DNA of 64,000 nucleotides. It comes from Opitutia bacterium. GTDB taxonomy: Bacteria > Verrucomicrobiota > Verrucomicrobiia > Opitutales > Opitutaceae. The position numbers and the translations under genes are program-made. Positions 31,262-35,754 of the stretch are shown here, one piece after another (positions within the stretch are counted from its first letter, which is position 1; each line of letters begins with the position of its first letter). A model generated the notes under the pieces. The model searched no databases. It saw nothing but the letters and a program-made list of their open reading frames with translations, and had not been told where the DNA came from. The DNA lies in contig JACPIT010000010.1 in NCBI GenBank assembly GCA_016187945.1, forward strand, positions 62,001 to 126,000, written 5' to 3'.

Positions 31262-33643
31262 ATGTTCCTGGCACGCATCAGTCGGCGAATCTTCCTGCTG
31301 GGAGGCTTCGTCGGCTCGATCGCGATCGTGCAAGCGGCATTCCCGCTCGTAGAAGCCGGCCGCGCAGCGCCGCTCATCGTCAGCGAAGGCGACGCCCGCG
31401 TCGTCCAACTCGCCACCGCGGATCTCGCGCGCGACATTGCGACAATCACCGGCGCCACGCCCGAAATCGTTCCCTGTAGGACGGGGTCTCCCGATGCCGC
31501 CTCTGCCGGCCCGCGCGTTCTCATCGGCACGCTCGGCTGCGCGCCCGCCATCGACGCGCTCGTCGCCTCGGGCAAGCTCGATGTCGGCCACCTGCGCGGC
31601 GCCTGGGAATCGTTTCTCATCGCTACGGTGGACGACGCGCTCTTGATCGTCGGCAGCGATCGCCGCGGCACCGCCTTCGGCGTCTACGAACTCTCGCAGC
31701 AGATCGGCATGTCGCCCTGGCATTGGTGGGCAGACTCCGTGCCGGAAAAGAAAAGTGAGCTGCTCATCCCGGACGGCACGCGGCGCTTCGGTCCGCCGTC
31801 GGTGCGGTATCGCGGCATTTTTCTCAACGACGAGGACTGGGGCCTGCAGCCGTGGGCCGCGACGAACTTCGAGCCGGAGAACGGCGGCATCGGCCCGAAG
31901 ACCTACGCGAAGGTCTTCGAACTCCTGCTCCGCCTGAAGGCCAATACGCTCTGGCCCGCGATGCACGCGTGCACGAAGCCGTTCAACGCCGACCCACGCA
32001 ACGCCGCGCTCGCCGACGACTACGCGATCGTCATGGGCTCCTCGCACGCCGAGCCAATGCTCCGCAACAACGTCGGCGAGTGGCCGCACGAGCGCGCCGT
32101 CGACTACAACTACGTCACCAACCGCGACGGCGTGCGCGCCTACTGGGAAGAGCGCGTGCGCACCAACGCCCGCTACGAAAACCTCTGGACGCTCGGCATG
32201 CGCGGCATCCACGACAGCGCCATCCAAGGCGCCAAAACCGACGCCGAACGCATCGCCGTGCTCGAACAGGTTTTCGCCGACCAGCGCGCGATGCTCGCTG
32301 CGCACGTCAACCCGGCCGTCGAACGCGTTCCTCAAATCTTCTGCGCCTACAAGGAAGTCCTCGACCTCTACCGCGCCGGCCTGCGCGTGCCCGACGACGT
32401 CACGATCGTCTGGCCCGACGACAATTTCGGTTACGTGCGCAACTACGCCTCGCCCGAGGAGCGCAAACGCAGCGGCGGCTTCGGCGTTTACTACCACATT
32501 TCCTACCTCGGCCGCCCACTCGCCTATCTCTGGCTCTGCACGACACCGCCCGCGCTCATCTGGGAGGAGATGACGAAGTCCTACGCGCACGGCGCCGATC
32601 GCGTCTGGATCGTGAACGTCGGCGACATGAAGCCCGCCGAGATCGGCACCGAGTTCTTCCTCCGCCTGGCGTGGGACGTGAAACAATGGGGCCCCGACGC
32701 GCAGCCGAAATTCCTCCACGAGTTCGCCGCACGCGAGTTCGGCGCAGAGCACGCTGAACGCAGCGCATCGATTCTCGACCGCTACTACACGCTCAACTTC
32801 GCGCGTAAACCGGAGCATCTCCAATGGTGGCTTCCCGGCCAGGCACCGCGCCCGAGCGACTGGATGGACAGCGACCTCGATGCACGTCGGTCAGCCTTCG
32901 ATGATTTGCGGTCCGACGCCGACGGCTTGGTCGAAAGGATTCCGGTCACCAAGCGCGACGCGTTCTTCGAATTGGTCGCCTACCCGGTGAGAGGCGCCGC
33001 ACTCGCCAACCGTCGCTACATTCTCGGAGAGCAAGGGCTTCACCTCGATGCCGCACACGCCGCCGACGCCGAACTGCGCGAGCTCACGCGACGCTTCAAC
33101 GAGGACATCGCACATGGCAAGTGGCGCGGGCTGATGCGCCTCGAACCCGCCGATCAAAACTGGAAGAGCATGCGCGTGGAGCCGTGGCGACCGTTGGTTA
33201 TTGCCCGGACCAAACCCACCGAAGTCGAAGGCCGCATTTCTGTCTCTGCGTTTCTCCCGCCTGAAGCCAAGGGTAGCAGCGCGGTCACCCACGGACTCGG
33301 ACGCTCGGGCGGTGCGCGACGACTCACAACCGGTGCGCGCTTCACCTACGAATTCGACTCCGACGCGCGCGACTTCGATCTGAGCTTCGAGCTTCTCCCC
33401 ACCCACCCGCTCCGCGGCGACGCGCTGCGTCTCGCCTTCGCGATCGACGACGACCCACTCCAAACGCTCGCCCTCCCCGTGCGCGACGGCGGCCCCGAGT
33501 GGGCGCAAGGCGTCCTCAACGGCTATCGCCCGCTCACCACGCGCATCCGCCTCGCGGAACCCGGCACACACAAACTCACCATCCGCGGTGTCGACGACGG
33601 CGTCGTCCTCGACCGCATCGTCCTCACTCCCGTGAAACCATGA
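31262..33643 (+). CDS. Glycoside hydrolase family 115 (alpha-glucuronidase-like)
   Basis: 'GTAFGVYELSQQIGMSPWHWWADSVPEKKSEL', 'RYRGIFLNDEDWGLQPWA', 'LRLKANTLWPAMH', 'DNFGYVRNYASPEERKRSGGFGVYYHISYLGRP', 'DRVWIVNVGDMKP'. Confidence 0.92.
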   Translation: MFLARISRRIFLLGGFVGSIAIVQAAFPLVEAGRAAPLIVSEGDARVVQLATADLARDIATITGATPEIVPCRTGSPDAASAGPRVLIGTLGCAPAIDALVASGKLDVGHLRGAWESFLIATVDDALLIVGSDRRGTAFGVYELSQQIGMSPWHWWADSVPEKKSELLIPDGTRRFGPPSVRYRGIFLNDEDWGLQPWAATNFEPENGGIGPKTYAKVFELLLRLKANTLWPAMHACTKPFNADPRNAALADDYAIVMGSSHAEPMLRNNVGEWPHERAVDYNYVTNRDGVRAYWEERVRTNARYENLWTLGMRGIHDSAIQGAKTDAERIAVLEQVFADQRAMLAAHVNPAVERVPQIFCAYKEVLDLYRAGLRVPDDVTIVWPDDNFGYVRNYASPEERKRSGGFGVYYHISYLGRPLAYLWLCTTPPALIWEEMTKSYAHGADRVWIVNVGDMKPAEIGTEFFLRLAWDVKQWGPDAQPKFLHEFAAREFGAEHAERSASILDRYYTLNFARKPEHLQWWLPGQAPRPSDWMDSDLDARRSAFDDLRSDADGLVERIPVTKRDAFFELVAYPVRGAALANRRYILGEQGLHLDAAHAADAELRELTRRFNEDIAHGKWRGLMRLEPADQNWKSMRVEPWRPLVIARTKPTEVEGRISVSAFLPPEAKGSSAVTHGLGRSGGARRLTTGARFTYEFDSDARDFDLSFELLPTHPLRGDALRLAFAIDDDPLQTLALPVRDGGPEWAQGVLNGYRPLTTRIRLAEPGTHKLTIRGVDDGVVLDRIVLTPVKP

Positions 33644-35754
33644 AAAGAACCCTGTTCGCCGCACTTGCTGGCGTCGTGCTCGCGGTCGGCATCGCCGCGC
33701 ATGCGTTAGCCCGCGCCGAGGCGGAGCCCGCCGCCAAACCGCTCTTCCGCGACCCGGTCTTCGACGGCGCGGCCGATCCGGTCGTCGTCTGGAACCCGCA
33801 CGCGCGCGCCTGGTGGATGTTCTACACCAATCGCCGCGCGAACGTCCCCGGCCTCTCCGGCGTCGCGTGGGTGCACGGCACACCCATCGGCATCGCCGAG
33901 TCGCGTGACCGCGGCAAGACATGGTCCTACGTCGGCACCGCCCACATCGACCTCCCGCCCGAAGTCGCCGGCCCACCCGGCACCACCACCCTCTGGGCCC
34001 CCGAAATCGTCACCGCCGCCCAAGCCAAGTGTAACCTATTAGGTTACACTCCCGATACCACCCGAGCGAACCGGGACGCGCAAAGTAACCTATTAGGTTA
34101 CAAGTCCCCAACGGCCCCGGTCGATGCGGACGTCACGCACCACATGTTCCTCACCGTCGTGCCGGGCGTGTTCGAGGATTGGAAGCACCCGCGCCGCATC
34201 GTTCACCTCACGAGCACGGACCTCCGCTCGTGGAAATACGTCGCGACGCTCGCACTCTCGTCCGACCGCGTCATCGACGCCAGCGTGCACCGTTTGCCGG
34301 ACGGCACGTGGCGGCTCTGGTATAACAACGAGCGCGACCGAAAATCCATCTACTACGCGGACAGCCCCGACCTCTTCACCTGGTCCGACCGCGGCGAATG
34401 CACCGGCGTCGGCGAGCGTCCGGGCGAAGGTCCGTTCGTTTTCTCCTGGCGCGGACACCACTGGATGCTCGTCGATCTCTGGCGCGGGCTCGGCGTCTAT
34501 CGCTCGGACGATTTCGCGCACTGGACCGCGCAAACCGATAATCTCCTCGCGCAACCCGGCCGCGGCACCGACGACGGCGTCATCGGCGGACACCCCGGAG
34601 TCGTCGTGAACGGCGATCGCGCGTTTCTGTTCTACTTCACGCATCCCGGCCGCACGCCCGACGCCGCGCACGCCAAACTCGACACGACCGAGCAGCGCCG
34701 CAGTTCGATCCAGGTTGTCGAGCTGCACGAACGCGACGGCGTGCTCTCCTGCGACCGCGACGCCCCGACGTTCGTCGATCTCGGCGAGCCGCCAGCCGCC
34801 CCCGCGCACTACGCGAACCCGCTGATCGAACAGCGCGCCGATCCGCACATTTTTCGCCACACCGACGGCTGGTATTATTTCATGGGCACCGTGCCCGAGT
34901 ATGACCGCCTCGAACTGCGCCGCGCGCGCACGATCGAGGGCCTCGCCACCGCCGAGCCCAAAACGATCTGGCGCAAGCACGCCGCCGGACCGATGGGTGC
35001 GCACATCTGGGCGCCGGAGATCCATTTCATCGACGGCAAATGGTTCATCTACTTCGCCGCCGGCGAGGCGGAAAAAATCTGGAACATCCGCAACTACGTC
35101 CTCGAAAACTCCGCCGCCAACCCGCTCGACGGCGAGTGGATCGAGCGCGGCCAGATCGACACCGGCTGGCAATCCTTCGCGCTCGACGCGACGACGTTCG
35201 CGCACCGCGGGCGCCGCTACCTCGTGTGGGCGCAAAACGACCCCGCGATCAAGGGCAACACCAACCTCTACCTCGCGCCGCTGGCCTCGCCCACCCAACT
35301 CGCCGGCCCCGCCGTGCGGATTTCGCGTCCGGAGTTTCCGTGGGAGCAAGTGCGCTACTGGGTCAACGAAGGCCCCGCCGTCCTCGTGCGCCACGGCCGC
35401 ATCTTCATCACCTACTCCGCCGCCGGCACGGGCGCGGAGTATTGCCTCGGCCTCCTCAGCGCCGACGAAAACGCCGACCTGCTCGACCCGCAATCCTGGC
35501 AAAAATCCCCGACGCCCGTCTTCACCACGAGCGAAGCCAACGGCATTTTCGGCCCCGGTCACAACTCGTTCACGACCGCGCCCGACGGCGCCGATCTGCT
35601 CGTCTATCACGCGCGCAACTATCGCGACATCCGCGGCGATCCGCTGCGCGATCCTAACCGCCACACCCGCGTGCAACCGATTTCGTGGCGCGCCGACGGC
35701 ACGCCCGACTTCGGCGTGCCCGTGCCCGAAACCGCCGCGCCCTCTCCGCGATGA
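33640..35754 (+). CDS. Two-domain GH43-like glycoside hydrolase carrying an in-frame palindromic insertion
   Basis: ATGA overlap with GH115. N-terminal 'FRDPVFDGAADPVVVWNPHARAWWMFYT' and C-terminal 'YANPLIEQRADPHIFRHTDGWYYFMGTVPEYDRLELRRA', 'GAHIWAPEIHFIDGKWFIYFAAG' GH43 blades. Confidence 0.9.
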   Translation: MKRTLFAALAGVVLAVGIAAHALARAEAEPAAKPLFRDPVFDGAADPVVVWNPHARAWWMFYTNRRANVPGLSGVAWVHGTPIGIAESRDRGKTWSYVGTAHIDLPPEVAGPPGTTTLWAPEIVTAAQAKCNLLGYTPDTTRANRDAQSNLLGYKSPTAPVDADVTHHMFLTVVPGVFEDWKHPRRIVHLTSTDLRSWKYVATLALSSDRVIDASVHRLPDGTWRLWYNNERDRKSIYYADSPDLFTWSDRGECTGVGERPGEGPFVFSWRGHHWMLVDLWRGLGVYRSDDFAHWTAQTDNLLAQPGRGTDDGVIGGHPGVVVNGDRAFLFYFTHPGRTPDAAHAKLDTTEQRRSSIQVVELHERDGVLSCDRDAPTFVDLGEPPAAPAHYANPLIEQRADPHIFRHTDGWYYFMGTVPEYDRLELRRARTIEGLATAEPKTIWRKHAAGPMGAHIWAPEIHFIDGKWFIYFAAGEAEKIWNIRNYVLENSAANPLDGEWIERGQIDTGWQSFALDATTFAHRGRRYLVWAQNDPAIKGNTNLYLAPLASPTQLAGPAVRISRPEFPWEQVRYWVNEGPAVLVRHGRIFITYSAAGTGAEYCLGLLSADENADLLDPQSWQKSPTPVFTTSEANGIFGPGHNSFTTAPDGADLLVYHARNYRDIRGDPLRDPNRHTRVQPISWRADGTPDFGVPVPETAAPSPR
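34028..34101. repeat. Two AT-rich palindromes (GTAACCTATTAGGTTAC) in frame inside the GH43 CDS
   Basis: AGTGTAACCTA-T-TAGGTTACACT (34028-34050) and GTAACCTA-T-TAGGTTAC (34085-34101), 54 nt apart. Both encode NLLGY. Confidence 0.9.

Follow-up and report, generated by a model that had tools for sequence, protein, structure and literature searches.

The palindrome pair in the GH43 gene of the window (the whole 64-kb stretch of DNA that was analysed in the present study, C13:62001-126000 of the 5.47-Mb source genome G000) belongs to a dispersed repeat family of Opitutaceae, which are free-living bacteria of soil and water. We assign a probability of approximately 0.7 to the reading that this palindromic family was born by insertion and that its dyad is most likely the site for a dedicated XRE-like protein. 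The features of the locus, in window coordinates, are as follows:

33640..35754, strand +: host gene encoding a GH43-family protein of 704 aa, with the insertion in its N-terminal half
~34018..34125, strand +: in-frame insertion of ~108 nt (~36 codons), from protein alignment against GH43 homologs of other genera
34028..34050, no strand assigned: palindrome 1 in its extended form with 11-bp arms, AGTGTAACCTATTAGGTTACACT; in G000, AGT is more frequent than any other outer arm
34031..34047, no strand assigned: palindrome 1, GTAACCTATTAGGTTAC, GTAACC-TATTA-GGTTAC, exact match, read as (TGT)AAC CTA TTA GGT TAC = NLLGY
34048..34084, no strand assigned: spacer of 37 nt, in which the CACTCTG block that is common in spacers occurs in degenerate form as CGCTCGGG (reverse strand)
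34085..34101, no strand assigned: palindrome 2, GTAACCTATTAGGTTAC, the same 17 bp, 54 bp downstream, read as NLLGY

The sequence-only reading of this DNA had described a perfect palindrome that occurs twice in the GH43 frame with starts 54 bp apart, the first copy with 11-bp arms and both translated as NLLGY through rare leucine codons, and the coordinates and translation bear out each of these points as well as the flanking peptide that it quoted. Among the 133 leucine codons of three neighbouring CDS, CTA occurs twice, both times inside the palindromes, and TTA four times, two of them inside the palindromes. The palindrome has one open phase among the three frames in each orientation (NLLGY or NLIGY), and this is the one used by the GH43 gene, the ORF of which matches Pfam PF04616 (E = 2.7e-74) across its C-terminal half.

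The same reading had proposed a loop insertion that keeps the ORF open, and alignment with homologs agreed with this proposal in that approximately 36 residues are extra: the distance between the WAP and HHMF motifs is 48 aa in the GH43 protein of the window vs 11-12 aa in the homologs in which it was measurable, and the segment is missing from all 18 GH43 homologs of other genera, including those without a measurable WAP-HHMF distance. Same-genus orthologs (L178 in G040 and L179 in G074) have the insertion in diverged form, with WAP-HHMF distances of 51 and 44 residues, respectively. The limits of the insertion in GH43 are only approximate because its edges have diverged. The loop length at that position varies, as would be expected if the segment were no more than a normal GH43 loop, conserved or variable, with a palindrome pair produced by chance or low complexity; however, we give this explanation virtually no credence, since dinucleotide shuffles yielded zero matches even when up to three mismatches were allowed, and it is refuted by the number of copies in the genome and by the segment-free homologs.

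A pattern search of G000 found 31 exact copies of the palindrome in 18 clusters, vs 0 for the reversed control pattern, and the repetition elsewhere that had been anticipated from the window extends to the family: in a 150-genome sample of Opitutaceae, the palindrome was present in 30 genomes and 15 of 49 genera, with up to 38 copies per genome. Neither of the outcomes that the sequence-only reading had named as refuting it, a segment of conserved length in GH43 homologs or a palindrome confined to this locus, was observed. The dyad has the form N6-TATTA-N6 (17 bp) and occurs singly or in pairs. The two commonest spacings among 71 distinct pairs were 54 bp (22 pairs) and 66 bp (16 pairs), and the CACTCTG block was found in 26 of the 71 spacers, as compared with a mean of 7.1 and a maximum of 15 after shuffling. 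The complete genome of IMCC26134 (G075, CP011265.1) has 13 exact copies and two homologs of the helix-turn-helix protein described below. In some genera (L075, L048, and others), the palindromes have long symmetric arms, such as acaaaGTAACCTATTAGGTTACtttgt, which suggests an arm extension specific to the genome. A search of Rfam gave no match for the repeat with E values up to 1.

Three viral contigs of IMG/VR (L296, L297, and L298) contain one exact palindrome each, but none encodes a relative of the helix-turn-helix protein. An origin from phages or plasmids was considered and rejected; apart from these three exact matches, the searches of viral contigs, plasmids, and phages gave no relative of the protein. 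Integron attC, dif-type, and matS-type sites were dropped on the basis of the sequence: the dyad is symmetric, has no spacer core, and occurs at scattered places in genes.

At least six of the 18 clusters in G000 lie well inside genes, as judged from Pfam domains and orthologs, with gene calls made from the frame, codon composition, and domain matches:

Six host genes, G000: GH43; alpha-L-rhamnosidase (a single copy, between domains); methyltransferase; AAA_28 protein; NAD-dependent epimerase; RNA methyltransferase

Two further clusters, near the predicted N-termini of alginate export and FGE-sulfatase genes, are uncertain. Orthologous sites in same-genus genomes were located using a composite query of the two flanks with no selection for the palindrome, and this comparison alone is free of the bias in the loci first taken for G040, G074, G116, and G149, which had been chosen for their palindromes. 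At the six genes, both flanks lay in one open frame in 29 of 29 ortholog comparisons, also where the relatives lack the insert, and the insert in the RNA-methyltransferase gene is missing in three same-genus genomes by exactly 99 nt. The encoded peptide drifts along with the palindrome (NLLGY, NLIGY, NPIGY, NLMGY, HLLGD, HLFGD, and HIIDD). In IMCC26134, palindromes were also observed inside a biotin-dependent carboxyltransferase fusion gene and the gene for an allophanate hydrolase-like amidase (L161, 428000-446000).

The proposed parallel with Rickettsia palindromic elements, namely the in-frame insertion of a palindromic sequence, therefore holds at six genes, and the coding phase is always that of NLLGY/NLIGY. 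The suggestion of a mobile peptide-coding repeat stood only in part: the repeat is inserted, but peptide coding is not its general property, because 12 of the 18 clusters are intergenic or uncertain vs six in genes. Since most clusters are outside genes, peptide coding reflects tolerance rather than design. Mobility of the repeat is suggested by the empty sites and the dispersal of its copies, while any target-site duplication is unreadable because the edges of the insertions have diverged.

Regarding the persistence of these elements, orthologous pairs with equal spacing had spacers that were 22-67% identical (random expectation, 38%) between flanking genes that were approximately 80-92% identical, and the palindromes of the same pairs were identical at 15-17 of 17 positions, with differences mostly at the centre base. 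Simple decay after a single insertion is ruled out by these intact palindromes beside randomised spacers. Where stems at orthologous sites differ, they mostly differ on both sides, as in GTAACC-TATTA-GGTTAC, GTCACC-TATTT-GGTGAC, and GTCACT-TATTA-AGTGAC. The three outer bases follow the genome and not the site (AGT in G000, ATT/AAT in G040, CGA and AGT in G074, and TTG in G116); the likeness of outer arms was 3.28 of 6 within a genome, vs 2.27 between genomes for a given site and a background of 2.25, and none of 500 label shuffles reached 3.28. Genome-typical arms at enduring sites indicate that each genome homogenises or renews its copies, whose positions nevertheless last. The arms specific to each genome favour within-genome turnover, and coevolution with the helix-turn-helix protein would also be compatible with them. 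Two sites, one in the AAA_28 gene of G074 and the other intergenic in G116, hold a hairpin with an unrelated stem and the same TAATA centre (background, 0.03 per kb).

The candidate for the protein that recognises the palindrome, which was out of sight for the sequence-only reading, is encoded by a gene that is enclosed by copies of it:

C9:39613-39957 (G000): small helix-turn-helix gene, between two palindrome clusters at C9:39530-40028

This gene belongs to a family of XRE-like helix-turn-helix proteins of ~118 residues. For the family member of G040 (118 residues), Pfam, NCBIfam, and PHROGs gave nothing above the cut-off, and the nearest entries, YdaS, HigA, and a phage repressor, were only weakly similar. 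The AlphaFold model of the homolog L126 predicts a long helix and a four-helix domain with moderate confidence (pLDDT 76.8), and its best matches in the PDB were XRE-type DNA binders (HigA2, SinR, and CylR2), none of which was significant alone. No catalytic-looking invariants were present in a 52-sequence alignment of the protein family. Homologs were found in 73 of the 150 genomes, often several in each, and at least 30 different gene neighbourhoods were distinguished around them, among which no partner gene was constant.

The same palindrome was present within 320 bp on both sides at 41 of 55 homolog loci, a few of which represent the same genomic place twice, vs 13 of 3000 geometrically equivalent random windows drawn from a pool that is itself rich in palindrome loci. 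Paralogs have specific stems (GTAACC, GTCACC, GTCACG, GTAGTC, TTGCCG, ATGGCG, CTAGCG, TGTTCG, TTTGCG, and TTCACG). A helix-turn-helix homolog occurred in 28 of the 30 palindrome genomes (Fisher p = 1.5e-8), and distances between predicted recognition helices correlated with those between palindromes (Mantel r = 0.63, 0 of 2000 permutations; 0.54 for the rest of the protein; partial r = 0.49), and these Fisher and Mantel values overstate independence because the genomes share ancestry. The GTAGTC palindrome has 19 copies in G000 and 21 in G149, both of which possess that paralog, and 0 in G040, G074, and G116. The TTGCCG palindrome has 10 copies in G040, in which the flanked paralog is present, 9 in G074, and 0 in G000, G149, and G116; a matching flanked gene for it was not found in G074, which counts against the favoured explanation, as does the finding that five palindrome-rich genomes (G003, G037, G109, G136, and G149) have distant homologs only. 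Two paralogs in G000 were observed with flanking palindromes of their own, L389 (C9:904302-904601) with GTAGTCTATTAGACTAC, of which there are 19 dispersed copies, and L390 (C8:455838-456110) with ATGGCGTATTACGCCAT. The unit of gene and palindromes lies in G000 in the gap between PatB and Dus, names that we read from the flanking proteins, and this gap is empty (86-139 bp) in three same-genus genomes. That the unit yielded neither a transposase nor a nuclease also counts against our explanation. With regard to MITEs, which share terminal inverted repeats with a full-length insertion sequence and have target-site duplications, a full-length unit of gene and flanking palindromes exists here, but it has no recognisable transposase, and duplications are unreadable after divergence.

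The arrangement may also be viewed as that of a regulator with its operators, in which the palindromes are mainly host-selected sites, belonging to a regulon or organising the chromosome, that track the specificity of an XRE-like regulator and are not a selfish mobile repeat. The 17-bp dyad, the predicted XRE-like fold, and the sites upstream of its own gene are features shared with the operators of XRE/Cro-cI-type regulators and antitoxins (HigA, SinR, and similar), and the autoregulation-like flanking of the gene, retention of the palindrome while the spacer randomises, covariation of the stem with the recognition helix, and conservation of site positions across species all suit such a regulator. 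On the other hand, the sites come as ~100-nt insertions, also in functionally unrelated enzymes, with empty sites in sister genomes; they occur in pairs 54 or 66 bp apart and at the downstream end of the gene too, and the palindrome of another paralog (TTGCCG) occupies one position in an ortholog. We consider a host regulon to be unlikely as the main explanation.

A second alternative is an ordinary REP/REPIN family mobilised in trans by a resident RAYT (Y1) transposase. RAYT genes are flanked by REPs (PMC2817692, PMC3116915), and the Opitutaceae repeats resemble that system in consisting of short palindromes in many copies, single or in spaced doublets, with compensated stems, several families per genome, and a flanked cognate gene. 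PF01797 genes were, moreover, present in all 20 palindrome genomes tested, with up to 14 per genome. Nevertheless, the gene flanked by the palindrome is the helix-turn-helix gene, the product of which is a ~118-aa XRE-like putative DNA binder without a PF01797 match and not a Y1/HUH transposase; among the RAYT loci examined in 20 genomes, none was flanked by a GTAACC-family palindrome, and they carried either other hairpins (GGGCGATATTATATCGCCC, CGCCGG...) or none. The GTAACC family has an AT-rich TATTA centre and no GTAG-type head: the GTAG/CGTC tetranucleotide is absent at the foot of its hairpin, the flanks being AGT, ATT/AAT, CGA, TTG, and similar, depending on the genome. The uvrA genes (L354-L357) of G003, presumably Opitutus terrae PB90-1, do contain tagged hairpins, whose heads are GTAG or GTGG and whose stems are rich in GC, in agreement with the intragenic REPs that have been published for Opitutus terrae. 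Mobilisation as an ordinary REP/RAYT family is very improbable. G000 also possesses an ordinary REP/RAYT family that is distinct from the GTAACC family, in which a RAYT-type gene (L149, C9:597610-600843) has a REP-like hairpin of its own on its flanks, GGGCGATATTATATCGCCC, preceded by GGAG and followed by TTCC. In G075, three PF01797 matches of equal score with an exact spacing of 836 bp (C1:723729-725730; L234, L247) represent an apparent tandem triplication of a Y1 gene.

Translated intragenic palindromic repeats have been known in Rickettsia since 2000, and their spread and the protein, if any, that recognises them have long been open questions. To our knowledge, no cognate gene is known for the Rickettsia palindromic elements, whereas a candidate is at hand for the present family. 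Both are palindromic inserts translated in frame in unrelated genes that are open in relatives (here six genes, 29/29 comparisons); the Rickettsia elements, which were reviewed in PMC10969869, are ~150 bp in length vs 17 bp for the dyads described here, most copies of which lie outside genes.

The sequence-only reading had also supposed that the element was undescribed in this lineage, which appears to be correct for the family itself and not for the phenomenon. For Opitutus terrae, in-frame REPs inside genes have already been reported, although of another family: Di Nocera and colleagues described this species as having the most intragenic GTAG-tagged REPs (PMC3733652). Those repeats occur in the same bacterial family as in-frame inserts of ~20-30 aa, often as dimers, but are GTAG/CGTC-tagged and GC-rich, while the GTAACC family is untagged with a TATTA centre, and neither GTAACC nor GTTAC appears in the main text of PMC3733652. 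In the literature searched, we found no earlier description of a palindrome family linked to a helix-turn-helix gene.

Taken together, the following mechanism may be envisaged for the insertion-born family with its XRE-like protein. The 17-bp dyad, usually paired 54 or 66 bp apart, would be the binding site of the ~118-residue protein, as suggested by synteny and covariation; a homodimer that reads each half-site fits because the dyad is symmetric and both half-sites covary with the recognition helix, and pairs approximately five helical turns apart could be bridged by the protein. The layout of the unit would be RAYT/REP-like, in that a single cognate gene has the palindromes on either side of it, and numerous copies without the gene lie elsewhere. 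Copying may be performed by the host or other enzymes in trans, possibly through host recombination or a transposase, and the palindromes may be kept intact either by selection related to binding or by conversion from other copies. Intragenic copies would survive only if their length is a multiple of three, the single open phase (NLLGY/NLIGY) is used, and the recipient loop is tolerant, such that retention in genes would follow from reading-frame selection. Whether this amounts to a selfish or domesticated element that consists solely of a dyad repeat and the small XRE-like protein binding it, that encodes no nuclease for its spread, that exists in several specificities within one genome, and that resides stably and in frame in enzymes, is a more tentative matter, and we regard it as possible with somewhat less than even odds.

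What appears to be new in the present study is a palindromic repeat that is apparently recognised by its own small helix-turn-helix protein. Many related palindrome types exist, each tied to a small protein with a covarying predicted recognition helix, and the system is open to simple binding and deletion tests. The intragenic copies offer a set of natural enzymes in which one and the same inserted peptide is tolerated, and the paralogs and their palindromes provide ready specificity pairs, helix vs half-site, for an uncharacterised family of putative DNA-binding proteins.
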